Source: a bacterium (GTDB lineage: Bacteria > Myxococcota_A > Bradymonadia > UBA7976 > UBA1532). Taken from it: DNA of 59,228 nt. Shown here piece by piece: positions 2,582 to 29,110 of the stretch. The stretch lies in contig JAUHYW010000069.1 of the NCBI GenBank assembly GCA_030426085.1, positions 1 through 59,228 on the forward strand, written 5' to 3'. The first letter of the stretch is position 1. Each line of letters opens with the position of its first letter. The notes beneath the pieces were generated by a model. The model saw only the letters and a program-made list of their open reading frames with translations, searched no databases and was not told where the DNA came from. The position numbers and the translations under genes are program-made.

Positions 2582-3328
2582 TCAGGTTCGGGGCGAGGGC
2601 GTCAGCAGCGGCGCGAGCCGGGTCGAGAGTTCGTCGAGGAAGGCGGTCAGGCCGACGGCGTCGCCCCGGGCGCGCAGCGTATCGAGCGGCAGCGCGTGCA
2701 GCCCGCGCAGGGCGCGCCGGGGGTCGTGGGCGGTGAGGCGGCCGAGCACGGTCTTGGTGCCCCGGGGCAGGTCGTCGCGCTTGGGGGCGAGGCGGTGGGC
2801 CACGGCGTGGGGGTGGGCGCCGAGGTCGGCGCGCAGCGACGCGAGGGCCTCCTCTTCGGTGTCGTCGGCGGGGTCGAAGGCGACGATGCTCCACGCCTCG
2901 ACTTCGGGGGTGGGCAAGGCCAGCACGACCGCCGGGCCGGCGTCGACCCGGGCGGCTTCGAAGGACGGGCGGCGGTTCTGGCCGTCGTCGTCTCGCATCA
3001 GGATCACGGCGTTGGCGTCGGGTCGTTCGAGGGCGGTCCAGACGAGCGCCTTGCGGGCCTGGGCGGCCTCGCCCTTGATGGTCCGACCGTAGCGGCCATG
3101 GATCCGCAGGCGGCGATGCGGTCGGCCGGTGGGGCGCTTCTTGAGGTCGGTCCACTTGACGAACCAGACGTCGTCGTCGCCGTGACGGTGGCGGTCGCCG
3201 CGCCAGGCCCGCAGGGCGTCGAGCACGCCGTCGGCCCACGGGGCCGCGTCGCGCAGGATCCGGTCGGCGAGGCGCTGCGCGACCTGCGCGTCGGCGCGGG
3301 CCTCGCAGAAGACGACGCACTCAATCAT
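2582..3328 (-). CDS. TOPRIM-like (DUF4276/RloB-type) partner protein of an AAA ATPase
   Basis: 248 aa. The call rests on three spaced motifs: an N-terminal strand ending in a glutamate (VVFCEARAD, E9), an Asp triad after a hydrophobic strand (VILMRDDDGQ, D113-D115), and LPTPEVEAW near 138-146. The last resembles the pelEsW motif of DUF4276 proteins. Such a set of acidic residues suggests a metal-dependent TOPRIM nuclease or nucleotide-binding fold. It overlaps the upstream AAA gene by eight bases (3321-3328), so the two are translationally coupled. AAA plus TOPRIM pairs are known in OLD-family and PARIS defence modules, but I cannot assign this pair to either by eye. Confidence is high that the gene is real and moderate for the fold. 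Confidence 0.75.
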   Translation of the reverse strand: MIECVVFCEARADAQVAQRLADRILRDAAPWADGVLDALRAWRGDRHRHGDDDVWFVKWTDLKKRPTGRPHRRLRIHGRYGRTIKGEAAQARKALVWTALERPDANAVILMRDDDGQNRRPSFEAARVDAGPAVVLALPTPEVEAWSIVAFDPADDTEEEALASLRADLGAHPHAVAHRLAPKRDDLPRGTKTVLGRLTAHDPRRALRGLHALPLDTLRARGDAVGLTAFLDELSTRLAPLLTPSPRT

Positions 3329-4388
3329 CGGCGCCGATGACCCAGTCCTCGCCCTCGGCGCTCAGCAGCTCGCCGGTGGAGAGGACCCGCAAGAGGTCGC
3401 CGGCCCGGGGGTGATCGCTGAGGGCCCGGCAGCGGGTGACGCCGCTCGCGTCGAGCGCGAGGACCCGGACCTCGTCGGCTTCGAGCTCGTCGACGAGGTC
3501 GGCCGAGTGGGTGGTGGCGACGATCTGGAGGTCGGGGTCGAGCTCGAGCACCCGGCGCAGCGCGGCGACCAGCTCCCATTGGGCTCTGGGGTGCAGGGCG
3601 TGGTCGAGGTCGTCGATGAGCAGCAGCCGCGGGCGGGGGTCGGTGTGCAGGAGGGTGAGCAGGCCGATGGTGATGAGGGTGCCTTCGCTGACCGCGTGGG
3701 CCGGCACGCCGCGGGCGTTGTCGAAGTCGACGAGCAGCTCCATGCGGCCCTCTCGCGCCTGCTTGCCGTCGGGGCTCGGGGCCGAGACCGTGCGCACCCG
3801 CAGGCCGCTGACCTGGGGCACGACGCGGCGGGCGTCTTCGACGAGGGCGGCGAAGCCGTCGGCGCCGGAGAGGATCATCTCGGCGATGACCGCGGCGAGG
3901 CCTTCGCCGTCGTCGGCGAGGCGGGGGTCGGGGCGGATCGGGGCCGGGCGGGCGAGGGCCCGTCCGTCGAGGCGGAGGAGGACGGCGGGGGAGATGGCCT
4001 CGCGGACAACCAGCGGGATCGCTGCCGGGTTGCCGAAGTCGACCCGCTTGGGGTCATAGCTCACCGGCTCGGTCTCACCGAGCGTATGGCTCACCCGGGC
4101 TTCCCACCACTCCGCGGTTCCGATGAGGTTCAATGCGAGTTTCCACGTCGAAGCCACGACCGAGATGGTCAGATCCTCGGCGCCGAGGCGGATGAGAAGC
4201 CCCGGATCGCGAAGGTCGCCGAAAGCGCGGCCGAAACCCGACGAGGCGAGCCGGCCCATGGCATGCAGCGCCATCAGCACCGATGACTTGCCGCTCCCAT
4301 TCGGCCCGACCAGCACGGTGAGCCGGCCGAGGTCGATCGCCGTGTCGGCGTGCGTCTTGAGGTTCGTCAGCTCGATGCGCCGGATCAT
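3321..4388 (-). CDS. AAA_15/AAA_21-type (OLD/RecF-like) ATPase
   Basis: 355 aa. It starts with the RecF/SMC-like pattern IRRIELTNLKTHADT, then Walker A GPNGSGKSS at 28-36. An SEGT signature lies in HAVSEGTLITIGLLTLL, Walker B is LLLIDDLDHALHP near residue 255, and VATTHSADLVDEL is the H-loop region. The residue normally catalytic Glu after Walker B is Asp (IDDLD rather than IDE). The length suits single-domain AAA_15/21 ATPases that work with a separate effector. The effector is likely the TOPRIM-like protein overlapping its 3 prime end. Its ATG lies nine bases after the stop of the FliG-like gene on the same strand, so it may be co-transcribed with the motor-like operon. Confidence 0.85.
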   Translation of the reverse strand: MIRRIELTNLKTHADTAIDLGRLTVLVGPNGSGKSSVLMALHAMGRLASSGFGRAFGDLRDPGLLIRLGAEDLTISVVASTWKLALNLIGTAEWWEARVSHTLGETEPVSYDPKRVDFGNPAAIPLVVREAISPAVLLRLDGRALARPAPIRPDPRLADDGEGLAAVIAEMILSGADGFAALVEDARRVVPQVSGLRVRTVSAPSPDGKQAREGRMELLVDFDNARGVPAHAVSEGTLITIGLLTLLHTDPRPRLLLIDDLDHALHPRAQWELVAALRRVLELDPDLQIVATTHSADLVDELEADEVRVLALDASGVTRCRALSDHPRAGDLLRVLSTGELLSAEGEDWVIGADD

Positions 4389-4397
4389 GGCCTCACG

Positions 4398-6290
4398 CTA
4401 CGCCAGCAGCCCGTGGAACGCCACGCCGCGGCGGGTCAGGCGGCGCTGCAAGCCGGCCGACAGCGCGGCCCGGCCGTCGTTGGCCCGGGCGTAGAGCGCC
4501 GCGCCGCGCAGGGGCGGGGCGCCGCCGAGGGCCGCGCGCAGGGCGGTGGGCATGCGGGCCTCGATGGCGGTCTTGGCGGCCGCGGTCTGCACCGCGAGCC
4601 ACGCGGCGAGCGCGTCGGGGTCGACCTCCAGCAGCAGATCGGTGCGCAGCTCGTCGTCGAGGCGCAGGAGCATCTCGCCGAAGAGCGTGTCGTGCATCCA
4701 GCTCGGCAGGTGGCCCGCGTGGTGGCTCAGGGCGGCGTCGACCAGGGCCCGGCGGGTCTCGGGGTCGACGTGGGGCAGCATGATCGAGAGCGCGCCGGTG
4801 GCGTCGAAGGCCGAGCCGCGGTCCGAGACGGCGCCGTGGGGCGGCGGGGCCGGCACGCCCTCGCCCTTGCGCAAGGCGTCGAGCACGTCGAGCAGGTAGG
4901 TCGTCTCGGCGGGATCCATGCGGTTGGAGCGCATGAGCTGGCCCACCAGCGCGGCGAGGGTGCGGCCGTCGAGGCGGCGCACGGCCTCGTATTGCATCGC
5001 CTCGGGGGCGACGGCGAAGAGCAGCGCGCCGTGGCGGGCGGGCAGGCGGGCGACGGCGTCGACGAGGGCCGCCGGGCCGAAGTCGTCGTGCAGCGAGCGG
5101 ATGAGCCCGGTGTCGGGCTGGGCGGTGAGCGCGGCCGACATGGCGTAGCGGTCGAGGGTGTCGAAGAACTGGCCGTCGCTGGGCAGCGCGCCGCGGTCGG
5201 CGTGCTTGAGGAACTCGGCCAGCTCGAACTTGGCCGAGGCGAAGTCGCCGCCCTTGGGGAAGACCCGGGGGAAGGCGTCGGGGAAGAGGATGACGGCCTT
5301 GGCCAGCATCCGCCGCTCGCCGGTGCGCAGCAGGTCGGTGACGAGCACCTGGAGCACCTGGTCGGCCTCGAGGTCGCTGCGGGCGAGGCGGTCGCGCCAG
5401 GCGCGCAGGCGGGCCGAGACCCGCTCGGCTTCGAGGTCGGCCGGGTCGGCGTCGGGCTCGGCGTCGGCGTCCTCGGGGTCGTCGGGCGCGGCCGGGCCCT
5501 CGGCGGCGAGGCTGGCGATGAGGGCCTGCTCTTCGGGCGAGACCCGGCCCAGGCGGCGGGCGGCCCAGATGACGATCAGCGCGGCGAGGGTGGCGAGCAG
5601 CAGGCCGAGCATCCACGGGAAGTGGGGCAGCACGCTGAGCCACGCTTCGCGGCCGGCGACGGCGCCGTCCCAGGTCTCGGGGGCCGGGGGCGGGCCGGCG
5701 TCGGCTTCGGGCTCTTCGACCGGGGGCGCCTCGGGCTCCTCGGGTTCTTCGGGCTCTTCGGGCGGGTCGCGCAGGAAGTCGGGCAGGGGGTCGAGGCTCT
5801 CGAAGGTGACGTCGACCTTGGTCCAGCCGCTCGACAGCTTGGATCCGAGGCGCTTGGCGAGCGCCCGGGCGTTCTTGGCGGCGACCGAGGGCTCGTGGGC
5901 GAAGCTGCACTCGACGGTGGTGAGGTAGACCTGCTCGCCGTCGCCGCCCCCGGGGCCCGGGTCGAGCCCGAGGCCGGGCAGCGAGCGGGCGGCGGGGCGG
6001 TCGACGACGGTGTGCGAGACGTAGAGGCAGCCCTTGGAGAAGCAGCGCTCGGGGGCGCAGTCCCGGGCGAGGGCCTGTTCGAACTGGTGGCTCATGAGGC
6101 GCACCCCGGCCAGCACCGGCGGGGGGAGCTGGCGGTCGGGGACCTCGGCCCGCCGGGGGCCCTCGGGGGCGGCGGGCGCGGCGGGGGTCTGGGCTGCGGC
6201 GGGCGCGGCGAGCAGCGCGAGCGCGAGCAGGGCGGCCGCGCGCAGGGCCGGTGGCGTGGGTCGAGTCATCGGTGTCATCCGGGATGGCAT
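4398..6290 (-). CDS. Membrane-anchored FliG-like protein (FliF/FliG-like architecture)
   Basis: 630 aa. Order of parts: signal peptide (about 1-34), a periplasmic domain with four cysteines (C78, C83, C88, C128), a Pro/Glu-rich linker (about 175-205), one membrane segment (about 222-243), an acidic linker (about 265-290), and a helical cytoplasmic part (295-630). The last part follows the FliG middle and C-terminal pattern. LVDAVARLPARHGALLF and VAPEAMQYEAVRRL (409-440) resemble FliG-M. The stretch 516-590, with MHDTLFGEMLLRLDDEL and LLLEVDPDALAAWLAV, tracks FliG-C, where the family has MF.FEdl..ldD...q.LL.evd...L..AL. FliG is the rotor protein that stators push against. Here it is tethered by its own membrane segment and follows the MotB-like gene (TGATG overlap). 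The homology is by eye only. Confidence 0.72.
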   Translation of the reverse strand: MPSRMTPMTRPTPPALRAAALLALALLAAPAAAQTPAAPAAPEGPRRAEVPDRQLPPPVLAGVRLMSHQFEQALARDCAPERCFSKGCLYVSHTVVDRPAARSLPGLGLDPGPGGGDGEQVYLTTVECSFAHEPSVAAKNARALAKRLGSKLSSGWTKVDVTFESLDPLPDFLRDPPEEPEEPEEPEAPPVEEPEADAGPPPAPETWDGAVAGREAWLSVLPHFPWMLGLLLATLAALIVIWAARRLGRVSPEEQALIASLAAEGPAAPDDPEDADAEPDADPADLEAERVSARLRAWRDRLARSDLEADQVLQVLVTDLLRTGERRMLAKAVILFPDAFPRVFPKGGDFASAKFELAEFLKHADRGALPSDGQFFDTLDRYAMSAALTAQPDTGLIRSLHDDFGPAALVDAVARLPARHGALLFAVAPEAMQYEAVRRLDGRTLAALVGQLMRSNRMDPAETTYLLDVLDALRKGEGVPAPPPHGAVSDRGSAFDATGALSIMLPHVDPETRRALVDAALSHHAGHLPSWMHDTLFGEMLLRLDDELRTDLLLEVDPDALAAWLAVQTAAAKTAIEARMPTALRAALGGAPPLRGAALYARANDGRAALSAGLQRRLTRRGVAFHGLLA

Positions 6291-6913
6291 CAGTACACCC
6301 GCACGACGACCCGCCGGTGGCGGGCGAGGATCTGGTCTTCGGTGAGGCCGGCCAGCTCGTCTTCGGGCAGCGCCTGGGTGTCGGCGTAGCCCTCGACCCG
6401 CACCCGGCCGGGGTCGACGCCGACCCGCTCGAGCCGGACCCGCACGGCGTTGGCCCGGGCGGTCGACAGCTCCCAGTTCGACTGGAACGCCTGGCTGTTG
6501 ATGGGGCGGCTGTCGGTGTGGCCCTCGACGGCGAAGCGGTAGCGCGCGGCGTAGGGCACCAGCGTGTCGAGCATCGAGGCGAGCACGGGCTCCATGCCGG
6601 GCACGATGTCGGCCTCGGCGGTGTCGAAGACGACCCCCGAGTTGAGCGAGAGCTTGAGCCCGTCGTCGGTCAGGTCGGTCTGCACCACGTCCTCCAGGTC
6701 CTGCTCGCGGATGCGCTCGTCGATCTCTTCCTGGATCGAGGCCAGGCTGGCCGGGCTCGTCTGCCCCGAGAGCTTCTGGCGCACCGTCTGCATCTTGGTG
6801 GTGCTGATCTCGGCCATCGACAGCAGCATCACGAAGAAGATGAGCAGGTTGGTGATGAGGTCGGCGTACGAGAGCAGCCAGCTCTCGTTGTCGTCTGGGG
6901 TCCGGCGCTCCAC
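6290..6913 (-). CDS. MotB-like stator protein with OmpA peptidoglycan-binding domain
   Basis: 207 aa, GTG start four bases after the MotA-like stop. A short cytoplasmic N-terminus leads into one membrane helix (12-33) with YADLITNLLIFFVML. D18 sits where MotB carries its ion-binding aspartate. The C-terminal half is an OmpA-like peptidoglycan-binding domain: FAVEGHTDSRP, then NWELSTARANAV and VEGYADTQAL. The plug-like middle region is short. Together with the MotA-like gene it would form an ion-driven stator anchored to the cell wall. ExbD/TolR-type function is less likely because those lack the OmpA domain. The gene is coupled to the FliG-like gene by a TGATG overlap. Confidence 0.9.
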   Translation of the reverse strand: MERRTPDDNESWLLSYADLITNLLIFFVMLLSMAEISTTKMQTVRQKLSGQTSPASLASIQEEIDERIREQDLEDVVQTDLTDDGLKLSLNSGVVFDTAEADIVPGMEPVLASMLDTLVPYAARYRFAVEGHTDSRPINSQAFQSNWELSTARANAVRVRLERVGVDPGRVRVEGYADTQALPEDELAGLTEDQILARHRRVVVRVY

Positions 6914-6917
6914 GGGC

Positions 6918-7622
6918 TCACCCCCTCTCGCCTTCGGCCAGCTCGATGACCGTCTGCCGGCAGCGGCTCAGCGCCCCGAGGCGGCCGTCGAGCAGGCTGC
7001 GCAGGTAGTGGCCGATGGGCCCGGCGACCCCGGCCCCGAAGGCGATGCCGTAGAGCGTCGCGACGAGGGCCAGCGAGATGGCGGCGCCGATGTTGAGGTC
7101 TTCGTTGCCCATGTTGCGGAAGAGCTGGATCATGCCGGTGACGGTGCCGACCATGCCGAAGCTGGGGCCGAGGCGGGCGAGCAGCTCCCAGTTCGAGGTG
7201 GCCGGCTGCCAGCGCTCCAGCTCGGCGTGGCGCAGCTCGAGGAAGACGGTGCTCACCCGCTTCTCGCTGGCCCGGGCGAGCACGAGGCGCAGCATCTCCC
7301 GCACCGGGCCGGTGGCCCGCTCGGCGAAGTCCACCGCCTGGGCCCGCTTGCCGTCACGCCACAGCTCGGCGAACCGGGTGCGCTCGCGCTCGATCTGCGC
7401 GGTGCCTCTGTCGAGCTGGCCGGCGAACGGCAGCAGCTCCCGCAGGCAGAGCAGGGTGCGCAGGCTGGTCAGCGCGCTGGACGAGGTCATGATGGCCGCC
7501 GCGCAGCCGCCGAGCACGACGACGAGCGCGTGCAGGTCGATGGCGCTGACCTGGGTCATCTCGCGGTCGCTGAAGCCGTAGAGCACGACGCCGACGAGGC
7601 AGACGAGTCCGATGATCTGCAT
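6918..7622 (-). CDS. MotA-like stator protein
   Basis: 234 aa with the MotA/PomA layout: membrane helices at about 2-18, 31-52, 152-170 and 180-202, with a long cytoplasmic loop (about 55-148) rich in charged residues. The third helix carries the family motif as FGMVGTVTGMIQLF. The fourth is SLALVATLYGIAFG, as in MotA. The length fits MotA-type stators; there is no long C-terminal tail of the ZorA kind. It starts five bases after the stop of the upstream lipoprotein gene and precedes the MotB-like gene. Predicted role: five-subunit ring around the MotB-like dimer, using ion flow to push a cytoplasmic rotor, here plausibly the FliG-like protein. Confidence 0.9.
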   Translation of the reverse strand: MQIIGLVCLVGVVLYGFSDREMTQVSAIDLHALVVVLGGCAAAIMTSSSALTSLRTLLCLRELLPFAGQLDRGTAQIERERTRFAELWRDGKRAQAVDFAERATGPVREMLRLVLARASEKRVSTVFLELRHAELERWQPATSNWELLARLGPSFGMVGTVTGMIQLFRNMGNEDLNIGAAISLALVATLYGIAFGAGVAGPIGHYLRSLLDGRLGALSRCRQTVIELAEGERG

Positions 7623-7626
7623 GGGT

Positions 7627-8283
7627 TCAGTTGCCTCCCTGGCGCAGCGTCTCGAGCATCTCCCTCACCTGGGGGTCGCTCTCGATCTCTTCGACCGCTT
7701 CGTAGACTTCGATGGCTTTTTCGCGCTCGCCCATCAGGTACAGGATCGAGCCCTTGGCCCGCATGAACTCGGGGTGCGCCGGGTAGCGGGCGAGCACCAT
7801 CTCGGCCCACTCGAGCGCGAGCTGTACGTTGCCCGTCTCGAGGGCGTCCTGCATCAGCGTGCGCGAGCGGGTGATGCTGATGTCGGGCGCGTCGGCGTTC
7901 ACCCGCAGCCCGCGGGCCCGGTAGGCCTCGACGAGCGTGGCGTCGGCGATGGTCGGCTTGGGCGGCACCAGCCGGGTCGAGGGCAGGGTCTTGACCTCGC
8001 CCGAGGCGTCGCTGTGCTCGATGATGATGCGCTGGCCCCCGGCGAGCACCGGGATCTGCACCTCGGTGAGCACCTCGCCGTCGTTCCAGCTCACCTTCAT
8101 CACGGTGGTCGAGCCGAAGCCGAACGGGCGGGCGAGGGTGCCCTCGTCTTCGTCGAGCGCCGGGTTCTTCGCCGGGGCCGGCTCGATGAGGTAGGTGGTG
8201 TAGTTGCGGGCCGAGCACGCCGGGAGCAGGGCGCCCGACGCGAGGCAGGCCAGCAGCCACAGTGATGCGCGCGGGTGTCTCAT
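7627..8283 (-). CDS. Lipoprotein with C-terminal TPR-like helices, motor-like operon
   Basis: 218 aa. The signal peptide ends in a lipobox (LLPAC). A beta-rich middle follows (VMKVSWNDGEVLTEVQIPV and GGQRIIIEHSDASGEV). The C-terminal 80 residues are helical and TPR-like (TGNVQLALEWAEMVLARYP, then GEREKAIEVYEAVEE). ATG overlaps the upstream stop by ATGA. It probably sits in the periplasm or inner leaflet of the outer membrane. Its place immediately before the MotA-like gene suggests a structural part of the envelope complex. I do not recognise a named family. Confidence 0.75.
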   Translation of the reverse strand: MRHPRASLWLLACLASGALLPACSARNYTTYLIEPAPAKNPALDEDEGTLARPFGFGSTTVMKVSWNDGEVLTEVQIPVLAGGQRIIIEHSDASGEVKTLPSTRLVPPKPTIADATLVEAYRARGLRVNADAPDISITRSRTLMQDALETGNVQLALEWAEMVLARYPAHPEFMRAKGSILYLMGEREKAIEVYEAVEEIESDPQVREMLETLRQGGN

Positions 8284-9251
8284 GGCAGCACCGGCAGGAT
8301 GGTCGAGTTGAGCAGGGTGATGCCGACGCCGATCTCGCCGTTGGTCGAGATGGCGAGCAGGCCGGCGAAGTTGGAGCTGCCGATGGGCACCCGCAGCAGG
8401 CCGGTGACGGTCAGCACCGGGTCGAGGATGTCGATGTCGGCGTCGGCGATGCCCTGGGCGACGGCGGTGGGCACGCTGAGCAGGAGCTTGGCGCCGAGGG
8501 TCATGTGCAGCCAGGGCAGCACCCGGTGGTACGAGGCGCCGACGCCGAGCACCGGGTCGTAGAGCGAGAGGACGAAGCCGGTGAGGTTGCTGTTGGTGTC
8601 GCCCCACTGGTCGGCCCACTCCAGCGAGATGTGCTGGCCGGGGTACAGCGCGAGGTCGAACATGGCGTGGGTCAGGCTCTCGCCCCGGGCCCGGCGCTCC
8701 AGCTCTTCGGCGAGGCGGTAGGTGCGCTGGGTGCCGCTGTAGCTGCGCAGGTCGGGCTCGATGTTGCCGGCGAAGATCACCCGCCCGTTGCGCAGGTCGA
8801 CGATGCGCAGGGCGACGCCGGTCTGCGTCTCTTCGATCCACACCGCGCTGCGGGCGGGCGCGCTCTGGCCCCGGTAGCGCTCGTCGAAGGCGACGATCTC
8901 GTCGAGCGCGGTGGGGCCGCTGGATTGCAGCAGGTAGCCTTCGCCGACGGTGGTGCGGATGCGCATGCAGGCCTCGCACACCCGCACCCCGCCGTCGCCG
9001 AAGGCCCGCAGCAGCGCGGCGAGGGCCCGGGCCTCGAACCAGCCCTGCGACGCCTCGTAGCGGGGGGCGGCGGCGACGAGGATCAACGGCAGGATCTCGC
9101 TGTGATCGAGGCGGCCGGCCTCCTGGCGCAGCTCGAGCAGCTCTTCGAGGCGCTCCATGGCCTCGCGGGTGGTGTCCCGCTCGGCGGATGCCATCGATGG
9201 CATCAGGCACAGGGCGCCGCACAGCGCCAGGGTGGCCGGCCTCAGAAGCAA
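8280..9251 (-). CDS. Secreted CsgG/FlgO-like domain plus predicted outer-membrane barrel (paralogue of the upstream gene)
   Basis: 323 aa if translation starts at the TTG at 9251. That start has GAGG seven bases upstream, overlaps the preceding gene by ten bases, and yields a complete signal peptide (ATLALCGALCLMPSMASA). The nearest ATG (9203) would destroy the signal. The N-terminal half has a CEAC pair and TGVALRIVDLRNGRVIFAGNI, a pattern like the CsgG/FlgO/LpoB group. The C-terminal half is a run of alternating short strands (SLYDPVLGVGASYHRVLPW; NFAGLLAISTNGEIGVGITL), as in outer-membrane barrels. It shares this two-part layout with the gene at 9242-10390. Confidence 0.7.
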   Translation of the reverse strand: MLLRPATLALCGALCLMPSMASAERDTTREAMERLEELLELRQEAGRLDHSEILPLILVAAAPRYEASQGWFEARALAALLRAFGDGGVRVCEACMRIRTTVGEGYLLQSSGPTALDEIVAFDERYRGQSAPARSAVWIEETQTGVALRIVDLRNGRVIFAGNIEPDLRSYSGTQRTYRLAEELERRARGESLTHAMFDLALYPGQHISLEWADQWGDTNSNLTGFVLSLYDPVLGVGASYHRVLPWLHMTLGAKLLLSVPTAVAQGIADADIDILDPVLTVTGLLRVPIGSSNFAGLLAISTNGEIGVGITLLNSTILPVLP

Positions 9252-10390
9252 AACGAGACCTCGGCGCCGAAGCTGTGGAACTCGAGCCCGAACAGCGCGA
9301 CGAAGTCGCCGATGCGCTCCGAGTCGTTGAACGCGGGCATGTTCTCGAGGAAGGCCGCGGCGCTGATGCGATCCCCGACCCGCATCTCGAGGCCGAGGTG
9401 CAGCCCGGCGAAGGTGCCCCGCCCGGGGCCGCCCTCGTCGCTGAGCAGGGCCACCGCGTCGCCGTCGACGGTCATCAGCGCCGCCCCGAGGAAGAGGTAG
9501 ACGTCGGGGCCGGTCAGCGAGCGGGTCTGGCCGCTGATGAGCCGCGCCATGCGGGACTGCACCATGAAGCCGTCGTAGGCGTCGGGCAGCCAGGCGTAGC
9601 CCAGCACGAGGTCGGCCTTCCACCGGCGGGCCTGGGTCAGCGCCGCTTCGAACCCGGTCTGCAACCAGATGATCGGCGCCGGGGGGAACCCGCCCTCGTC
9701 CGATCCGGCGTAGGTCCGCACGGCGAACTTGATCGGGATGTTGAACGGGCCCCGGTCTTCGAGCGCGTCGAGGTACTCCTCGCGGGCCTCGGCGGCCGAC
9801 TTGAGGCGCTCGGGGTGGCGCAGCAGCGAGGGCTTGCCCACCGGGGAGGCGATGGTGCGGCTCCATACGATGGGCAGGTCGGGGGTCAGCCGGGTGATGC
9901 GGGCCCGCAGGACGAGCCAGGCGCCCTCGGCGGCGAGGTCGATGTACAGGCCGTGGCGCCCGCCGGCACCGCCCATCTTCTCGAGCGTCTCGGGGTTGTC
10001 CAGGCCCCGGGAGACGACGGTGCCTTCGGGGCCGGAGTGCACGACCATCGCGGTGCAGGTGGGGCAGGCCGAGAGCACGAGGCTCGAGCGGGGGTTGGCC
10101 AGCAGCAGCGCGGCGAGGTGGTTCTCGACGAGGCCGGCGAGGCCGCTGCCCATGCCCACCGGTACGGTGAGGTCGGCGAGGATGACCGGGGTCGGCTCGC
10201 CGAACGGCGGGGCCTGGGTCATGTCGTGGATCAGCTCGTCGAGCAGGTCGAAGGCCGAGAGCTGGACCTGACCGGCGATCACCCGGCGCAGCTCTTCGAG
10301 CTCGGCTCGCTGCGCTTCTTCGGCGGTGATCGCGCCGGCGAGCGTCGGGATCAGGGCCAGCGCGCAGGCGAGGGGCAGGGCGCGGATCAT
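9242..10390 (-). CDS. Secreted CsgG/FlgO-like domain plus predicted outer-membrane barrel
   Basis: 382 aa, ATG overlapping the upstream stop (ATGA). It has a signal peptide (ALPLACALALIPTLAGA). The first half has VILADLTVPVGMGSGL, a CPTC pair, and WLVLRARITRLTPDLPIVW, recalling FlgO/LpoB/CsgG-type periplasmic domains. Residues after about 240 are amphipathic strands typical of a barrel (GFEAALTQARRWKADLVLGY), ending in Phe (EVSFCF), as outer-membrane proteins often do. It precedes a shorter paralogue. Vibrio flagella use FlgO, FlgP and FlgT as outer-membrane rings, which makes the co-occurrence with a MotAB/FliG-like set notable. The family assignment is tentative. Confidence 0.72.
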   Translation of the reverse strand: MIRALPLACALALIPTLAGAITAEEAQRAELEELRRVIAGQVQLSAFDLLDELIHDMTQAPPFGEPTPVILADLTVPVGMGSGLAGLVENHLAALLLANPRSSLVLSACPTCTAMVVHSGPEGTVVSRGLDNPETLEKMGGAGGRHGLYIDLAAEGAWLVLRARITRLTPDLPIVWSRTIASPVGKPSLLRHPERLKSAAEAREEYLDALEDRGPFNIPIKFAVRTYAGSDEGGFPPAPIIWLQTGFEAALTQARRWKADLVLGYAWLPDAYDGFMVQSRMARLISGQTRSLTGPDVYLFLGAALMTVDGDAVALLSDEGGPGRGTFAGLHLGLEMRVGDRISAAAFLENMPAFNDSERIGDFVALFGLEFHSFGAEVSFCF

Positions 10391-11046
10391 CGCAGCCACC
10401 GCCACGCGCCGTCGGCGCAGTAGCCCACGTTGAGGATGGTCGCCCGCCGGTCGCGCAGGGCGATGCCCATCAGCGCGTCGCCGGGTCCGAGCGATCCGCC
10501 GGCCACGTAGCGGGTGCAGGCGAGGGGCCACGCCCGCTGGGGGTCGATGCGGCCGATGACCTCGACGTCGCCCGCGGCGAGGGTCGGGGCCCGGTCGCTG
10601 ACGGTGAGGCCGGCGGCCATCAGGGCGTTCTTGGCGGCGAACTCGACCTTGCCGGCGACGTGCAGGTCGGGGTGGTAGACCTCGACCAGCCAGGTGCGGC
10701 GGCGCAGCGGGTCGGCGAGGCCGGCGATGTGGCCCGCCATCTCGTCGGCGGCGGTCCGCAGCGTGGACAGGATCGCCTCGTCCCGGGCCCGGCGCACGCC
10801 CTCGGGCATCAGCCGGGCCCGGCAGATCACCGCCCGGCGCTCGAAGAAGTCGCCCCGGGGGGCGGGGGTCTCGATGCGGCCCGGCGCCTGCTGGCGGGCG
10901 GCCTCGGTGCTCAGCGCCTCGCAGTCGAGCGCGCGCAGCTCGCGGGCGCTGCCGGTGAGCGGGCCGATGAAGCCGTCGACCGGATCCCGGATCTCTTCGA
11001 TGAGCGAGGGCAGCGCGAAGAGCAGCACGTACAGCCAGAACTCCAT
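10387..11046 (-). CDS. Envelope protein of the motor-like operon, N-terminal anchor
   Basis: 219 aa. The N-terminus is a short hydrophobic segment (EFWLYVLLFALPSLIEEI) that could be an uncleaved anchor or signal. The rest is soluble. It includes cysteines spaced like disulfide pairs and a C-terminal domain with VEFAAKNALMAAGLTVSDR and GDVEVIGRIDP, resembling the small alpha/beta domains of LPP20/CsgG-like secreted proteins. It starts three bases after the upstream lipoprotein stop and overlaps the next gene by ATGA. The function is unknown; context places it in the same envelope complex. Confidence 0.7.
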   Translation of the reverse strand: MEFWLYVLLFALPSLIEEIRDPVDGFIGPLTGSARELRALDCEALSTEAARQQAPGRIETPAPRGDFFERRAVICRARLMPEGVRRARDEAILSTLRTAADEMAGHIAGLADPLRRRTWLVEVYHPDLHVAGKVEFAAKNALMAAGLTVSDRAPTLAAGDVEVIGRIDPQRAWPLACTRYVAGGSLGPGDALMGIALRDRRATILNVGYCADGAWRWLR

Positions 11047-11049
11047 GGG

Positions 11050-11658
11050 TCAGCCGGGCCCCGTCGGGCGGCCTTCGGCGAGCACCCGCCGCCGCACCCG
11101 GGCGTTGAGCGCGAGCTGGCTGAGCTGGGCGTAGAAGTCGGCCGAGAAGTCCTCGTCGGCGTCCGAGAAGAAGCCCCACCGCTTGACGAAGCGGCCGGTG
11201 AGGGTGTCCCGGGCGAGCATGAACCCGGTCTCGTCGCGGATGACGACGTCCTGGGCGACGGTGTAGTCCGAGACGTGCTCCCAGAAGAGCCAGTCGGTGA
11301 TCTGGCGGTGCAGGATGCGGGCGGTCAGCTCGACGCGCAGGGCGGTGCGGGGGGTCGCGGGGGCCTCGGCGTCGGGCTCGGGCTCGGCGGCGGGGGCGCC
11401 GGGGGTGTGGATCTCGACCCGGGCGCCCTGGTTCTCGAAGAGGCGGGCGACCCGGCGGCAGAGCGCGCCGGCTTCGGTGGCGTCGACGGCCCCGCCCGGC
11501 GGGCAGCGGACCTCGATGTCGACGTCGGTGAAGTTGGGCCGGGTGGGGTCGACGGCGACCGGGCGGTGCAGGCCCGACATGGGCTGGTAGACCACGACCG
11601 TGCACCCCCCGGACAGCAGGGCGGCGAGCAGGGCGAGGGGTGTGCCGCGGGGCGCCAT
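11050..11658 (-). CDS. Lipoprotein, first gene of the motor-like operon
   Basis: 202 aa. ATG at 11658 with GGAGA nine bases upstream; longer in-frame extensions would run into the promoter region. The signal peptide ends with lipobox LLSGC-like (ALLSGGC). The body holds CPPGGAVDATEAGALCRRVARLFENQGARVEI split by a Pro/Glu linker, then LRVELTARILHRQITDWLFW and an Asp-rich segment. The strand-helix-strand pattern recalls LptE/DUF4136-like lipoproteins, but I cannot name it. It heads a run of minus-strand genes with gaps of nine bases or fewer down to 2582. Confidence 0.72.
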   Translation of the reverse strand: MAPRGTPLALLAALLSGGCTVVVYQPMSGLHRPVAVDPTRPNFTDVDIEVRCPPGGAVDATEAGALCRRVARLFENQGARVEIHTPGAPAAEPEPDAEAPATPRTALRVELTARILHRQITDWLFWEHVSDYTVAQDVVIRDETGFMLARDTLTGRFVKRWGFFSDADEDFSADFYAQLSQLALNARVRRRVLAEGRPTGPG

Positions 11659-11820
11659 CGGGCGGTGTCTCCAGGGGGTGGATCTCGGCCGGCGGAGGAT
11701 AGCAGAAAGAGGGCGGCGGGGCTTCTTCGCGACGGGCGGTGGATACCGCATCCGGGTGGGGGCCGCGGCGCGGTCGGAGGCCGCTTGCCTCGGCCGGCCC
11801 ATGCGCATAGGGTGTCGCGC
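11659..11820. promoter_or_regulatory. Divergent intergenic region (motor-like operon / TPR protein)
   Basis: 162 bases separate the starts of two divergent genes, so promoters for both should lie here. It contains a slightly AT-richer patch (GGATAGCAGAAAGAGG, 11694-11709) and GGATACCGCATCC (11741-11753). I could not identify a convincing pair of -35 and -10 boxes. Confidence 0.45.
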
Positions 11821-22212: not shown

Positions 22213-24051
22213 TCACTCGGCGGGGGCCGGGCTCAGCTCGGTCGACTCGGCCGCCCGCGACGCGACCAGCGCCTGCACCCCGGCGATGAAGTCGTCCACC
22301 GACAGGGTCACCGACTTCTTGGAGTCCCGCCGACGCACCGCCACGGTGCCGCCCTCGACCTCGGTGTCGCCCATCACCAGGATGAACGGCACCTTCTCCA
22401 GCGTCGCCTGCCGGATGCGGGCGTTCATCCGGCTGCCGGCGTCGGGGTGCTCGACCCGGATGCGGGCCGCCTTCAGCCGGGCCTCGACCGCCTCGGCGTA
22501 CTCGACGTGGCGGTCGGCGATGGGCACCAGCGTCGCCTGCACCGGCGACAGCCACACCGGGAAGGCCCCCGCGGTGTGCTCGATGAGGATGCCGATGAAG
22601 CGCTCGAGCGATCCATAGATCACCCGGTGCACGACGACCGGGGTCTTCTCGGCGCCGTCGGAGTCCACGTAGCGGCAGTTGAACCGCCGGGGGAGCTGGA
22701 AGTCGAGCTGGATGGTGCCCATCTGCCACTGCCGGCCGAGCGCGTCCTCCATGAGGATGTCGACCTTGGGGCCGTAGAACGCGCCGTCGCCGTCCTCGAC
22801 GAGGTACTGCCCCACGCCGGCCTTGGTGTCGAGGATGCGCCGCAGCGCCGCCTCGGCCCGATCCCAGGTCTCGACGTCGCCGATGAACTTCTCCGGGCGG
22901 GTGCCCAGCCGCAGGGTATAGGTCAGCCCGAAGATGCTGTAGAAGTGATCGGTGAGTGCCAGGACCCGGGCGTACTCCTCCTCGATCATGTCGGGCGTGA
23001 TGAAGATGTGGGCGTCGTCCTGCTGGAACTTCTGCACCCGCAACAGCCCGTGCAGCGCGCCCGAGCGCTCGTTGCGGTGCAGCACGTCGCAGTCCGACAG
23101 CCGCAGCGGCAGGTCGCGGTAGCTGCGGGTCTTCAGGTTGAACACCACCATCGCGTTGGGGCAGTTCATCGGCTTGACGCCATAGGTCCGGTGCTCGTCG
23201 ACCGGGCAGATGAACATGTTCTCCTGGTAGTGCTCCCAGTGGCCCGAGATGTCCCAGAGCTGGCGGGCGTTGACCAGCGGGGTCGAGATCTCCTGGTAGC
23301 CGGCCTTCTCGTGCTCCTCGCGCCAGAAGTCGATGAGCGTGGTCAGCAGCTTGAAGCCCTTGGGCAGCCAGTAGGGCATGCCCGGCGCGGTGGGATCGAG
23401 GTGGAACAGCTCGAGCTGCTTGCCCAGCTTGCGGTGGTCCCGCCGCTCGGCCTCGGCCAGCCGCCACAGGTGCTGGTCCAGCTCCTCCTTGGTGCGGAAG
23501 GCGGTGGCGTAGACCCGCTGGAGCATCGGCCGCTTCTCGTCGCCCCGCCAGTAGGCCCCGGCGATGCTGAGCACCTTGAGCGCCTTGGGGTTGATCTGGC
23601 GGGTGTCTTCGACGTGCGGCCCGCCGCACAGGTCGGCGAAGTCGGCGTGGCGGTAGACGGTGAGCTTGGGGGCCTGCCCCTCGGGCAGCGGCTCGCCGTC
23701 CTCGTCGAGCGCGCCCTCGAGGATGCCGTCGATCAGCTCGAGCTTGAACGGCTGGTCGGCGAACATCTCCCGGGCCTCTTCGGGGCTCAGCTCGCTCTGC
23801 TCGAAGGTGTGCCGCTGGGAGACGATCTTCTTCATGCGCTTCTCGATCCAGCGTAGATCGTCGTCGTTGAGCGACCGGGGCAGCACGAAGTCGTAGTAGA
23901 AGCCGTCGGCGATCGGGGGCCCGATGCCGAATTGCACCTCGCCGTCCTGGCCATCCTTCTTGAAGCGATCGCGCACCGCCTGCGCGAGCACATGGGCCGC
24001 GCTGTGGCGGATGCGGTGCAGCTCGTCCTTCGCGTGATCGGTGGTGGCCAT
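22213..24051 (-). CDS. thrS: Threonyl-tRNA synthetase lacking the N-terminal TGS domain
   Basis: 612 aa. It begins directly in the editing domain: HSAAHVLAQAV near residues 17-27 and DLCGGPHVED further on are its zinc-site-like motifs. The class II catalytic core follows: MNCPNAM (zinc cysteine), motif 2 HRNERSGALHGLLRVQ with FQQDDAH, and motif 3 YGSLERFIGILIEH. The anticodon-binding domain ends the protein. Standard bacterial ThrS carries an extra TGS domain of about 60 residues before this, which is missing here. Upstream sequence to 24131 offers no TGS-like frame. All catalytic and editing residues appear intact. Confidence 0.95.
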   Translation of the reverse strand: MATTDHAKDELHRIRHSAAHVLAQAVRDRFKKDGQDGEVQFGIGPPIADGFYYDFVLPRSLNDDDLRWIEKRMKKIVSQRHTFEQSELSPEEAREMFADQPFKLELIDGILEGALDEDGEPLPEGQAPKLTVYRHADFADLCGGPHVEDTRQINPKALKVLSIAGAYWRGDEKRPMLQRVYATAFRTKEELDQHLWRLAEAERRDHRKLGKQLELFHLDPTAPGMPYWLPKGFKLLTTLIDFWREEHEKAGYQEISTPLVNARQLWDISGHWEHYQENMFICPVDEHRTYGVKPMNCPNAMVVFNLKTRSYRDLPLRLSDCDVLHRNERSGALHGLLRVQKFQQDDAHIFITPDMIEEEYARVLALTDHFYSIFGLTYTLRLGTRPEKFIGDVETWDRAEAALRRILDTKAGVGQYLVEDGDGAFYGPKVDILMEDALGRQWQMGTIQLDFQLPRRFNCRYVDSDGAEKTPVVVHRVIYGSLERFIGILIEHTAGAFPVWLSPVQATLVPIADRHVEYAEAVEARLKAARIRVEHPDAGSRMNARIRQATLEKVPFILVMGDTEVEGGTVAVRRRDSKKSVTLSVDDFIAGVQALVASRAAESTELSPAPAE

Positions 24052-24250
24052 GGGAGGCTCCTCATCAGGTCGGCCCGGCGGGCGCAGGTGGAACGACGGG
24101 CGAGCCTACCGACCTGCCCCAGAGGCGTCAACCGCGGCCCGCCGGGGGCCTCGGCGCCCTCCCGGGGCCTGTGGCGGGCGCCCGTTCGTCGCGTCGGCGC
24201 CCGCCGTTGCTGTATGGTGCACGGCGAATCGCCTTGCCGCCGAGGTCGTG
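24052..24250. promoter_or_regulatory. Divergent intergenic region (thrS / secreted-protein operon)
   Basis: 199 bases between divergent starts. Candidate ribosome site GAGG at 24242-24245 serves the plus-strand gene. A T-box would not be expected in this kind of organism and none is visible. No convincing sigma-70 pair was found. Confidence 0.4.
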
Positions 24251-26287
24251 GTGTCCGGCTTTACCCGAGTCCTGCCATTCGCCGCCGCCGCCCTGCTCGT
24301 GGGCGGCCTCGCCGGCTGCAAGGTGCCGCTGACCGACATCGCCGCCCGCTTCGTCGTGGCCGACGCCGCGTGGTTCGCCGAGGAGGAGACGCTCTTCGTC
24401 TTCTACGAGGTCGAGGCCGAGCAGGGGCTGAGCGTCGAGACCACCGTCGAGCTCCGCTACGTGACCGACGACGGGGTCGTCGACTGGACCGAGCTCGGCG
24501 ACATCGAGCCGGTGCACACCCACGTCCCGGTGGACTGCGGGCCGAACACCCGCTGCGGCAGCACCAGCATCCACGTCCCGCTCGAGCCGCGCGACGTCGA
24601 GGTCCGGATGCGCTACCACCGGGACGGCGCTCTGACGCTCGACCCCGAGACCCGGCTGAACGTCATCGGCCCCGGCCCGGCCCACAGCAACCGCAGCCTG
24701 CTGGTCTACGGCGTCTTCGACGAAGACAACCGGGGCGTGCAGTGGCGGGCGCGGCACCTCTTCCCCACGCTGCGCAACATGGAGGTCGAGCGGTTGGGGC
24801 TGCGGCGGCGGTTCACCGTCGATCTGATCAGCCGGGCCGGCGCGGCGCCCGAGCCGAACGGCAACGCCTACCTGTACGGCGTCCGCTGCGAAGACCCCGT
24901 CGCGCTCGACTGGCAGACCGTCGAGACCGAGGACCGGGCGATCTTCAGCCCCGAGGAGCTGCCCGAGTCGGCGTTCGCAGCGGAGACCGTCTGCGCCCGG
25001 GCCACCGTCTACGACCCCACCGGGCCCTTCGCCGCCAGCGCCGTCGCCCGCAAGAACCCCGAGGTGCGCCCGGCCTTCCCGCTGCTGCGCAGCCCCATCA
25101 AAGAAGCCACCCCCATCAAGTACTTCCTGCGCGTCTGCGACCGCACGATCTCGGGCCCGCACGCCGAGATGCAGCAGCAGCGGCTGCTGATGGAGGGCAT
25201 CGCCGCCATCTGCATCGACGCCTGGGCCGACCCCGACCGGGTCGACGCCGAGGTCGACGCGTTCGTGGCCCGGGTGCGCGACGACCTCGAGGCGGTGCGC
25301 GCGGCCGGGCGGGACATGGTCATCGCCCTCGCGATCCACCACGACGACCCGGCGGTGTTCGCCGCGGCGCTCGAGCAGACGCTGGCCGAGATCATCACCC
25401 CCGAGCTGGCCCGCAATACACCCCGGCTCGTGGGCGGCTTCGTCTTCGACAGCTTCGAGTACACCCTCACCGACGCCACCGTCGGCTCGACGGTGCTGTG
25501 GTGCCCGGCCCTCATCGACCTCGACCCCGACGCCCTCGAAGACGGGGTGCTGCCCATCCCGACGACCGGCCTGTCCAGCCTCGTCTGCGCGCTGCCCGCC
25601 GAGGATCTGCGGCTGAGCCTGGGCCCGTTCAACCTGGGGGCGCTGCCCATCCTGCCCAGCCGGGCCAAGTACCTCAGCTTCCTCGACATCTACACCGCCG
25701 ACGAGGCGGGGCGCATGAACTCGCTGACCTTCCTGGCGCCCGAGCTGCCGCCCAACGCCGACAGCCTGTCGCTGCCGCCCTTCGGATCGGTCACCTTCTT
25801 CAACGACGAGCAGATCAGCGCCGAGGCGGACGACGCCTTCTCGTACTGCGAGACCCAGGGCGAGGCGACGACGGTGGTCTTCCGCTCGGGCGCGGTGCCG
25901 ATCTTCCTGCCGGTGGCCGCGCTGCCCGACTGGCACGCGGCCTTGCAGGAAGAGAGCTATGGCCTGGGCCTGACCTGGGAGTTCCCCTATCTGCTCGAGC
26001 TGAACTACGAGGCGGTCGCCGCGCTGGCGGTCTCGGCGTTCGGGGCCAGCCTGCCGCTGGGGCTGGGCACCGACGTCGACCAGGACTACGGCAGCGCGGT
26101 GTGGAAGACCGGCGAGTTCCCGCTGGCCCGCAGCCTGACCCAATGCCGGCGCTACTGCGGGCACCCGACCTTCGACGCGGCGGGGGTCTACCAGATCGAG
26201 GATCTGTTCTCGGTGGCCTATCGCACGGTGTGCTACACGCCGGCCTTCCCCGCGCGGGGCGACGACGGGTTCCCGTATGATCCGTGA
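24251..26287 (+). CDS. Large lipoprotein of unknown function
   Basis: 678 aa. GTG at 24251 lies five bases after GAGG and gives a signal peptide with lipobox GLAGC. The body has many cysteines and mixed beta/alpha character (FYEVEAEQGLSVETTVELRY; RVRDDLEAVRAAGRDMVIAL; FVFDSFEYTLTDATV). No family is recognised. The gene overlaps the next one by 11 bases and heads a four-gene run of envelope proteins (24251-29772). A surface or periplasmic location is expected. Confidence 0.78.
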   Translation: MSGFTRVLPFAAAALLVGGLAGCKVPLTDIAARFVVADAAWFAEEETLFVFYEVEAEQGLSVETTVELRYVTDDGVVDWTELGDIEPVHTHVPVDCGPNTRCGSTSIHVPLEPRDVEVRMRYHRDGALTLDPETRLNVIGPGPAHSNRSLLVYGVFDEDNRGVQWRARHLFPTLRNMEVERLGLRRRFTVDLISRAGAAPEPNGNAYLYGVRCEDPVALDWQTVETEDRAIFSPEELPESAFAAETVCARATVYDPTGPFAASAVARKNPEVRPAFPLLRSPIKEATPIKYFLRVCDRTISGPHAEMQQQRLLMEGIAAICIDAWADPDRVDAEVDAFVARVRDDLEAVRAAGRDMVIALAIHHDDPAVFAAALEQTLAEIITPELARNTPRLVGGFVFDSFEYTLTDATVGSTVLWCPALIDLDPDALEDGVLPIPTTGLSSLVCALPAEDLRLSLGPFNLGALPILPSRAKYLSFLDIYTADEAGRMNSLTFLAPELPPNADSLSLPPFGSVTFFNDEQISAEADDAFSYCETQGEATTVVFRSGAVPIFLPVAALPDWHAALQEESYGLGLTWEFPYLLELNYEAVAALAVSAFGASLPLGLGTDVDQDYGSAVWKTGEFPLARSLTQCRRYCGHPTFDAAGVYQIEDLFSVAYRTVCYTPAFPARGDDGFPYDP

Positions 26288-27200
26288 CTGGCGGGCGCGG
26301 GCGCTGATCCTGGCGCTGGCGGTGTCTGCGGCCCACGCGCAGCCCGGAGAGCCACCCATAGAGCCATCCGCAGAGCCATCGGAGCCGCCATCGGAGCAGC
26401 CATCGGAGGAGGGGCCCGCCGAGGCATCCGAGGCCCCGTCGAGCGATCCGCCGCCCTTCGCCGATCCCATCCCCGAGCCCGAGCGGCTGCCCGACACCGC
26501 CATCGAGGCGCACCGCACGCCGTTCGACACCCTGGTCGATCGGGCCATCGGCCGCACCTCGCGCCCGGTGCGCTACGACTGGCGCAAGGCCACCGTCGAG
26601 GTCGGCCTCTCGGGCGCGCTGCCCGCCGAGCTGAACAACTTCCAGAGCTGGCGGGCGGGGGCCTTCGCCCGGGTGCCGGTCTCGGGCCTGCTGCTCGGCG
26701 TCGAGGCGTCTTATGTCTGGGTGTATGGCACCGACAGCACCGATCGGCTGGCGCTGACGCCGTATCGCCAGCCGGGGCGCCCCGATCGGATCGAGGTCGA
26801 CCTGACGCTGGCGTTCCCCCTCGCCGAAGGCATCGTGACCGCCTGGCCCGGCTGGTTCCCTTCGGCCGAGCTGGTCTTGCAGAGCCACCTCGACGTCCGC
26901 TACCTGCTCTACACCGGCGCCTTCGACGGATACGACTTCACCGACACCGCCCGGGCGCTGTTCTCGGGCAGCCTCTCCGACCGCGACCTGGCCAACCTCG
27001 AGAGCGACCGCCTGCCCGGCATGCAGATCGACCGCGGGCGCTACGCCATCCTCGCCGGGCTGGGCGCCGATCTGTACTTCCAGTCGGGGCTCTTCTTCAG
27101 CCACAAGCTGCTCGTCGCCGTGCCGCTGCTGGCCGCGGCGACCGAGTCCGAGCTGTACGTCTGGCTCGAGCTGCACCTGCTGACCGGCATCTCGTTCTGA
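26277..27200 (+). CDS. Predicted outer-membrane beta-barrel protein with Pro/Glu/Ser stalk
   Basis: 307 aa. The signal peptide (ALILALAVSAAHA) is followed by a low-complexity stretch of PSE-type repeats (PSAEPSEPPSEQPSEE). From about residue 100 come alternating amphipathic strands (ATVEVGLSGALPAEL; LLLGVEASYVWVYG; DLTLAFPLAEGIV), ending in aromatic Phe (LLTGISF), as in barrel proteins. It is coupled to the preceding lipoprotein and the following gene (TGATG). Confidence 0.72.
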   Translation: MIRDWRARALILALAVSAAHAQPGEPPIEPSAEPSEPPSEQPSEEGPAEASEAPSSDPPPFADPIPEPERLPDTAIEAHRTPFDTLVDRAIGRTSRPVRYDWRKATVEVGLSGALPAELNNFQSWRAGAFARVPVSGLLLGVEASYVWVYGTDSTDRLALTPYRQPGRPDRIEVDLTLAFPLAEGIVTAWPGWFPSAELVLQSHLDVRYLLYTGAFDGYDFTDTARALFSGSLSDRDLANLESDRLPGMQIDRGRYAILAGLGADLYFQSGLFFSHKLLVAVPLLAAATESELYVWLELHLLTGISF

Positions 27201-29110
27201 TGCTCGCCCTGCTGCTCGTCGGCCTGCTGGCGCCCCCGCCGGCCGAGCCATCGCCCCAGACGCTGGTCTATTACAACGCCCGCATGGCGCTGCGCGAGGG
27301 CCGGCCGCTGGAGGCCGTCGAGCTGTGGCTGCTGCGCAACGCCATCGCCAGCGAGACCGGGCGGGTGAGCGCGTACGACGTCGACCTGCGCTCGAACACC
27401 TGGGCCGCGCTGGGCGCGCTGGGCTTCTGCCCCGACGGGCTGCCGGCCGACGACGACGGGGTCGGGCTGTGGCCGGTGGCGATGCACAACTGGACCGTGC
27501 GCAACCGCCGCCCGGCGCCGCCCGACAGCGAAGCGGCGCCGTTCGACGCCTTCGAGGTCGGCCGGCAGCAGCGGTGGGTCTCGCTGAACGACGTGCTCGA
27601 CGCCGACGAGCTGAAGGCGGTGAAGCTGCGCCGCACCGAGTGCTGGTGGGGCAACCGGCTGGTGACCCGGGTCGCGCTGCCGTGGACCGAGCTGACCGAC
27701 AGCCGGGTGGCCGCCGAGGTGATGCGGGCGCTCTTGCGGGAGGCGCTGACGACGCTCGATCGGGGGCGCACGGTGGGGCTGGCGGCGATCGAGGCCCGCA
27801 TCTTCGACCTCGAGCTGCGCATCACCGGCCTCGGGGCCCGCGCCCGGCGGCGGGCCCGGCGGGAGGCGGTGATCGAGGGCCGCCGCCGGGGCCTGAGCCG
27901 GGACGAGCTGAGCGCGCTGGGGCGGGACGCGGCGCCGACGATCGCGCCCGACAGCGTGCCCGGCCGCATCCTGCGCCGCAGCCTCGCCTGGAGCGCCGAG
28001 GAGTGGATGACCCTCTCCCCCGAGCGCCGGCAGTATCTCTTCGGGCACGCCATGCGCTCGGCCGGCGCGATGACCCCCCCGCCGGACATGGCCGCCAGCC
28101 GGCGGCTGATCCTGAAGGTGATCGATCAGCTCATCGAGCGGCGGGCCGGCGCCGAGATCGGCGGCTGGATCGCGCACCTGGGGTCGGACGAGGCCAGCCG
28201 GCGCCTGGTGTGGGCCGGCGACCGCGGCGCGGGCCTGCTGAGCCTCGACGCGGAGTCCGGCTTCCGCGAGCGGGCCCCCATCGCGCTGCACCGGGGCGTC
28301 GATCAGCTCGCCCGGGGCGACCTGCCGGGGTCGCTGCGCACGCTGGCCCTGGCGCTGAAGTGGTCCGAGACCTCCCGGGCCGGCGACGCGGCGCGCAACC
28401 TCGCCCGGCGCTGGCTCTCGTTCGTCGCCGCGCAGTTCCGGGTGACCGACGGCCTGCTGACGATGCTGCGCACGGTGGTGCCCCGGACCGACTTCACCGC
28501 GGTGCTCGAAGACCAGCTCTGGCACGCGGCGCTCAACGCGGACGGCGCGTCGTTCGACCGCTGCCTACGGCATCAGGTGGGGCGGGGCGCGCTGGTGCAG
28601 CGCAGCGCGCTCTTGCGGCCGCTGGCCGACGGGGACGGGGGCGCCTTCGCGACGCAGGTGATCGCCGCGATCGACGAGTCGCCCTACTTCGCGGTGCGCT
28701 TCCTGGGGCAGTTCCTCGACCGGCTCGCGGCGCAGGAGACCGCGGTCCGGGCCCGCTACGTGCCCGTGCTGCGCCCGCTGAAGGATCGGCTCGAGCGGCT
28801 GCTGGCCGAGGATCAGAGCGGGCGCGGGCAGCGGCGGGTGCAGGGGCTCGTCGACCGCATGCGGGCCATCATCGACGGGCTGGTGCCGATGCCCGACGAC
28901 GCCTCCGAGGCCGACCGGGCCCACGGGCTGTCGGCCGATCGCGCGCTGTACGTGGGCAGCGTGCGGGTCGCGCCCTCCGACCCGCTGCCGTGGCCCTTCC
29001 GGGTGCCGATCGTGCAGGCCCCGTCGGTTTTCCTGCCGCTCGAGCTGCGCCCCGAGGAGTGGCGGATCGACGGCCGACGGGTCTTCGGCTGGCGGGTGCA
29101 GGAGCCATGA
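27200..29110 (+). CDS. Secreted helical protein of unknown function
   Basis: 636 aa. A short N-terminal hydrophobic segment (LALLLVGLLAPPP) looks like a signal peptide. The mature part is mostly helical, with Arg/Ala-rich stretches that may form a coiled coil (about 195-235: AAIEARIFDLELRITGLG) and TPR-like helices. Conserved-looking aromatic patches include ECWWGNRL. The gene starts inside the stop codon of the barrel gene (TGATG) and overlaps the next gene by ATGA. I recognise no family. Confidence 0.72.
   Translation: MLALLLVGLLAPPPAEPSPQTLVYYNARMALREGRPLEAVELWLLRNAIASETGRVSAYDVDLRSNTWAALGALGFCPDGLPADDDGVGLWPVAMHNWTVRNRRPAPPDSEAAPFDAFEVGRQQRWVSLNDVLDADELKAVKLRRTECWWGNRLVTRVALPWTELTDSRVAAEVMRALLREALTTLDRGRTVGLAAIEARIFDLELRITGLGARARRRARREAVIEGRRRGLSRDELSALGRDAAPTIAPDSVPGRILRRSLAWSAEEWMTLSPERRQYLFGHAMRSAGAMTPPPDMAASRRLILKVIDQLIERRAGAEIGGWIAHLGSDEASRRLVWAGDRGAGLLSLDAESGFRERAPIALHRGVDQLARGDLPGSLRTLALALKWSETSRAGDAARNLARRWLSFVAAQFRVTDGLLTMLRTVVPRTDFTAVLEDQLWHAALNADGASFDRCLRHQVGRGALVQRSALLRPLADGDGGAFATQVIAAIDESPYFAVRFLGQFLDRLAAQETAVRARYVPVLRPLKDRLERLLAEDQSGRGQRRVQGLVDRMRAIIDGLVPMPDDASEADRAHGLSADRALYVGSVRVAPSDPLPWPFRVPIVQAPSVFLPLELRPEEWRIDGRRVFGWRVQEP

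Follow-up and report, generated by a model that had tools for sequence, protein, structure and literature searches.

A membrane-anchored FliG-like protein encoded beside MotA and MotB in a bacterial envelope gene cluster

An open reading frame on the minus strand of contig JAUHYW010000069.1 (the window, which is the whole 59,228-nucleotide stretch that we analysed) encodes a 630-residue protein that combines a signal-peptide-like segment, a small periplasmic domain, one membrane helix and a FliG-like cytosolic region (positions 4398..6290; cluster gene 8). The gene adjoins genes for the motor proteins MotA and MotB within a cluster of envelope proteins, and its relatives occur in genomes with no detectable FliF, FliG or FliM. 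We propose that the protein is probably the torque receiver, or rotor subunit, of a dedicated MotAB motor that is not part of a flagellum.

The open reading frame is a genuine gene and not a chance one, because its relatives (75–39% identity, and ~18% in a divergent branch) keep its length, domain order and gene neighbours. The start codon overlaps the stop codon of the MotB gene upstream, as it does in most loci of the family. Residues 1–34 (6189..6290, on the minus strand like all parts of this gene) look by eye like a signal peptide (MPSRMTPMTRPTPPALRAAALLALALLAAPAAA, followed by Q), and relatives start with a similar segment. A Cys-containing domain, predicted to be periplasmic, spans residues ~58–167 (5790..6119) with a predicted alpha-beta-beta-alpha-beta order of low confidence, and is followed by a Pro/Glu-rich linker that sequence and alignment place at residues ~175–215 (5646..5768). 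There is one strong hydrophobic segment (226–244), modelled as a helix at 224–249 (5544..5621). Structure matches and profile comparison delimit the FliG-like helical region at residues 283–629 (4404..5444), within which residues 529–619 (4434..4706) form a putative torque domain like FliG_C. The single-chain membrane anchoring proposed in the first-pass annotation is supported, with signal peptide, one membrane helix and FliG-like region all in one open reading frame. Only six columns are invariant in an alignment of 26 family members: C78, C88, P105, G106 and, flanking or within the membrane segment, W217 and W226. All 20 members of the window's branch have cysteines 78, 83, 88 and 128 of the periplasmic domain, and Cys 78 and Cys 88 are conserved in the divergent branch as well.

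The annotation had also read residues ~295–630 as FliG-like, and structural comparison agreed. The AlphaFold model of the window protein was built from two sequences and has a mean pLDDT of 51, with values of 70–80 in places in the cytosolic part; in this model of moderate to low confidence, the cytosolic region adopts the helical M and C arrangement of FliG. The top 12 Foldseek matches were all FliG chains. VIA-align likewise ranked FliG first (Z 9.3–6.7), ahead of MgtE (Z 8.7–5.8) and the next unrelated structure (4.8), values that should be read with the caveat that helical repeats can reach Z near 9 without kinship. For the putative torque domain, which matched 1qc7_B and 8ucs_H, VIA-align superimposed residues 529–619 on FliG 235–323 at 2.6 Å rmsd over 85 residues, and on the MotAB-bound FliG domain (8ucs_H) at 2.8 Å over 84 residues.

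Sequence comparison of the window protein alone returned no match in the PDB or in NCBIfam and no Pfam FliG_C match above the curated cut-off; its best Pfam match was MgtE_N at residues 506–582 (E 0.016), which is not a confident one. Several divergent relatives, which share the same operon setting, do match FliG_C above the cut-off (best 37.1 bits vs 23.3). The two branches are related to each other in the cytosolic part (hhalign probability 85%, 209 columns). Compared with FliG and anchored on E. coli FliG, the profile of the divergent branch scored 73% over 218 columns, and that of both branches together 87%; with different match-column settings the values were 27% and 56%, and unrelated pairs scored 0.2–1%. 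We trust the predicted FliG match, since the FliG family heads the list consistently and agrees with the sequence evidence.

The adjoining MotA and MotB genes, which the first-pass annotation did not mention, are the strongest context for the FliG-like gene. MotB (6290..6913, minus strand; cluster gene 7) has the plug, the OmpA domain and the conserved proton-site Asp (YAD), and beside it MotA (6918..7622, minus strand; cluster gene 6) is a channel protein of the MotA_ExbB family. MotB lies directly upstream of the FliG-like gene, on the same strand, in 36/36 loci examined; MotA is present in 34/36, the remaining two contigs starting within MotB. The YAD Asp is kept in every MotB examined. In the window's branch, MotA has an Arg followed eight residues on by Glu or Asp, matching Arg90 and Glu98 of E. 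coli MotA, which contact FliG according to PMC12505986. In the divergent branch no clear counterpart of this pair is seen. In the FliG-like protein, an Arg281-like torque residue is kept in 17/20 members of the window's branch, which does not conserve the acidic residues that contact MotA Arg90 in E. coli (D288/D289); the divergent branch keeps the basic-acidic-basic pattern of the torque helix, offset by 1–2 residues from R281, D288/D289 and R297 of FliG. MotA-contacting charges had been expected at residues 540–575. That position was off, as structural alignment puts the torque-helix region at ~575–610, where only part of the FliG charge pattern is kept. We conclude that the link of the FliG-like protein to a MotAB motor is supported. 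Elsewhere in its genome, the window's bacterium has two more MotB genes, which fits a motor dedicated to the FliG-like protein here.

The superhelical fold of FliG is also that of MgtE_N, and structures of both appear in the VIA-align match list of the window protein. MgtE_N passed its own Pfam cut-off in one divergent member and two members of the window's branch, and at E 0.1 or better it was found in 22/26 members, with FliG_C in 7/26 (best E 4e-9). The cytosolic region might accordingly act as a scaffold of MgtE_N type, recruiting or gating MotAB by holding the stator or controlling ion flow; no ring would turn, and MotAB would pull or twist a periplasmic partner in the manner of Tol or Ton. 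Besides the prevalence of MgtE_N, the commonest Pfam match of the family, this explanation could draw on the plentiful periplasmic partners encoded in the cluster, and on the lack of the acidic torque pair in the window's branch and of EHPQR, the FliM-binding motif of FliG, which is absent from the window protein and from the 26-member alignment. The missing motif and acidic pair also weigh against a rotor, as do the fact that the window's branch matches MgtE_N best by sequence, a domain with no torque role in MgtE, the weakness of the full-length model, and the unclear MotA charge pair of the divergent branch. Against the scaffold stand the FliG-type M and C architecture over 200+ columns, the FliG_C matches above the cut-off in the divergent branch, and the R90/E98-like pair kept in MotA. 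We regard the scaffold as unlikely and favour a torque-receiving rotor subunit.

The periplasmic domain had been suggested to be a ring-building motif like those of FliF. The order of elements fits: the predicted helix-strand-strand-helix-strand, linker, membrane helix and FliG part follow the order of the last ring-building motif and second membrane helix of FliF and then FliG, and a FliF ring structure (8z5v_A, FliF 255–452) aligned with residues 58–167 at Z 4.0 in VIA-align. The models are weak, however. Folded alone, the domain reached pLDDT 58, and its best structural matches were CDF C-terminal domains (Z 8) and OsmC, with no FliF among the best 50 matches of this weak model; profile comparison with FliF gave 0.4–6% probability, at the level of a control family (1.9%). 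The domain is possibly a ring-building motif. FliF itself has two membrane helices, three ring-building motifs and a collar, whereas the window protein has one helix besides the signal peptide and one small periplasmic domain. FliG is soluble and encoded in a flagellar cluster, whereas the window protein carries a signal peptide and membrane helix, and the cluster around it contains no recognisable flagellar genes besides motAB. Because these defining features of both families were tested and found missing, we class the protein as a member of neither.

A second alternative is that the protein forms the base ring of an apparatus resembling type III secretion, a role suggested for a natural FliF-FliG fusion of non-flagellated Chlamydiaceae (PMC4768692). 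In its favour, the periplasmic domain weakly matches the fold of a type III ring protein (2y9j_Y), and a needle-less type III system has been reported in Bradymonadia (PMC11509652). Nevertheless, no Pfam match to export-gate proteins was found among the cluster proteins scanned, and the constant pairing with MotAB also argues against such a role, which we consider very improbable.

The rotor proposed here would stand apart from the flagellum, and the distribution of the gene bears this out. Of 377 genomes sampled from the phylum, 45 gave matches with E no higher than 0.01, 41 of them clear and four marginal. Single-sequence search within the class found close relatives in the window's own family only, plus one weak match outside it that covers the Pro-rich linker and membrane region; profile search reached the divergent branch, whose domain order and gene neighbours are the same. 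The gene is carried by 22 genomes of the class. Ten of these also have FliF, and 12 lack FliF, flagellar FliG and FliM alike (G005, G006, G007, G009, G011, G012, G013, G015, G017, G019, G021 and G046); G009, G011, G012, G013 and G021 are 93–99% complete. The sole FliG_M-type match among these 12 is a weak one in G006 that overlaps an MgtE match. Because 12/22 class carriers lack all three proteins, we conclude that the FliG-like/MotAB system does not depend on a flagellum. The first-pass claim that such a protein needs no separate MS ring fits the 12 carriers without FliF, but the same genomes also lack FliG and FliM, and the protein is therefore not simply a flagellar replacement part. That it belongs to an extra stator and rotor set serving the host flagellum, as the presence of FliF, FliG and FliM in the window's own genome might suggest, is largely refuted by this distribution and by cluster partners that match no flagellar proteins, and is the least credible of the explanations.

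Two observations from the same survey concern gene structure. In G050 the FliG-like gene is split over the ends of two contigs (C31, locus L014, and C254, locus L015), probably by an assembly break. Separately, natural full-length FliF-FliG fusions, with FliF and FliG both complete in one open reading frame of ~860–870 residues, occur in two genomes of the same order (L096, 712–3324 of G054:C60; L088, 751–3330 of G055:C12).

In the window's branch, the MotA, MotB and FliG-like genes belong to a cluster of ~12 genes for lipoproteins and secreted proteins. Genes 1–8 lie at 11.7–4.4 kb on the minus strand. Ahead of MotA these are a lipoprotein (gene 1, 11050..11676, start approximate), a 219-residue protein (gene 2, 10387..11046), a secreted protein ending in Phe that by eye is a possible outer-membrane barrel (gene 3, 9242..10390), a further secreted protein (gene 4, 8280..9245, start approximate) and a TPR lipoprotein (gene 5, 7627..8283). 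Genes 9–12 lie at 24.0–29.8 kb on the plus strand and encode a large lipoprotein (gene 9, 24041..26287, start approximate), a secreted protein that is a possible outer-membrane barrel (gene 10, 26277..27200), a 636-residue protein (gene 11, 27200..29110) and a protein with one membrane helix and a C-terminal periplasmic domain (gene 12, 29107..29772, start approximate). The two halves are thus separated by ~12 kb and oppositely oriented in the window; other genomes keep them together, with gene 9 directly downstream of the FliG-like gene, and gene 9 still adjoins it in relatives of the window's own family (L006 and L013). Among the cluster proteins other than the trio, only the TPR lipoprotein could be clearly identified with Pfam and NCBIfam. 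In the divergent branch the trio is surrounded by genes for a separate set of secreted proteins. At one locus of that branch (L049, 8625–9173), a small membrane protein downstream matches the C-terminal domain of AgmX/PglI below threshold (E 0.0048); this family has been linked to gliding in Myxococcus. In the window, the FliG-like gene is directly followed by an AAA_21 ATPase (3321..4388, minus strand) resembling defence ATPases (HEC-01A and AriA models) and then by a 248-residue protein with no family match (2582..3328, minus strand). We rejected both as partners, since no match follows the gene in a genome of the same genus and the ATPase is defence-like.

Taken with the FliG-like protein as torque receiver, the most likely role of the dedicated MotAB motor is to drive an envelope process. 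The stator would be anchored to peptidoglycan through MotB, and ion flow would turn the MotA ring, which would push the FliG_C-like domain. Many copies of the protein may form a ring under the inner membrane through their FliG-like domains, and the single membrane helix and periplasmic domain, the latter probably stabilised by disulphides, would carry the rotation into the periplasm. The TPR lipoprotein, other lipoproteins and probable barrels could pass the motion on to the outer membrane, for surface movement, for example, or envelope work. Engineered fusions of FliF to FliG form rings on expression (PMC6079021, PMC11481574), and a single-chain rotor is therefore physically plausible. The fullest version of this proposal, a Myxococcota rotary machine apart from the flagellum in which a dedicated MotAB stator turns a minimal single-chain rotor resembling MS ring and C ring, within a ~12-gene trans-envelope assembly reaching the outer membrane and perhaps serving surface movement or predation, we put forward tentatively, at a little under an even chance.

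FliG is usually regarded as belonging to the flagellum alone. If the proposal is true, the torque pairing of MotA and FliG exists outside the flagellum, with a widespread partner and its own MotAB in genomes where the flagellar rotor genes tested for are missing; the origin of the rotor-stator partnership would become testable in living bacteria, and a small rotor would be on offer for structural work. A literature search, largely confined to papers outside subscription journals and preprint servers, returned no report of a FliG-type partner for a non-flagellar MotAB.

Compared with known systems, the protein shares with the flagellar C-ring protein FliG (PF14842, PF14841, PF01706) the helical M and C arrangement and a C-terminal domain of torque type, and MotAB, which drives FliG in the flagellum, is encoded beside it; it differs in its added signal peptide, periplasmic domain and membrane helix, in lacking EHPQR, and in that many carriers have no FliM. 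With the MS-ring protein FliF (PF01514, PF08345) it shares a periplasmic domain, a membrane helix and then a cytosolic FliG part, along with the predicted element order of a ring-building motif, but it has one helix and one periplasmic domain where FliF has two helices, three motifs and a collar, and the sequence relation is not significant. The MgtE_N domain (PF03448) has the same superhelical fold, but MgtE is a magnesium channel and the FliG-like protein has no channel domains. AglRQS, GldLM, Tol, Ton and Zorya are likewise ion-driven A/B motors that work outside the flagellum, with partners in the envelope or of other kinds, though the accessible parts of the sources mention no FliG-type partner for them (PMC9389320, PMC12505986). 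The Salmonella and Vibrio FliF-FliG fusions resemble it as joined proteins that assemble rings, but are engineered from full-length, normal flagellar proteins (PMC6079021, PMC11481574). The Chlamydiaceae fusion, from bacteria presumed to lack flagella, is a natural single chain with a periplasmic ring-type and a FliG-type part, but has ~330 residues, two membrane helices and only the FliG_M part, with no MotAB reported with it (PMC4768692). Natural joining of FliF and FliG is thus already known from Chlamydiaceae; as far as the accessible literature goes, what is new here is a non-flagellar MotAB motor whose FliG-like partner is anchored in the membrane.
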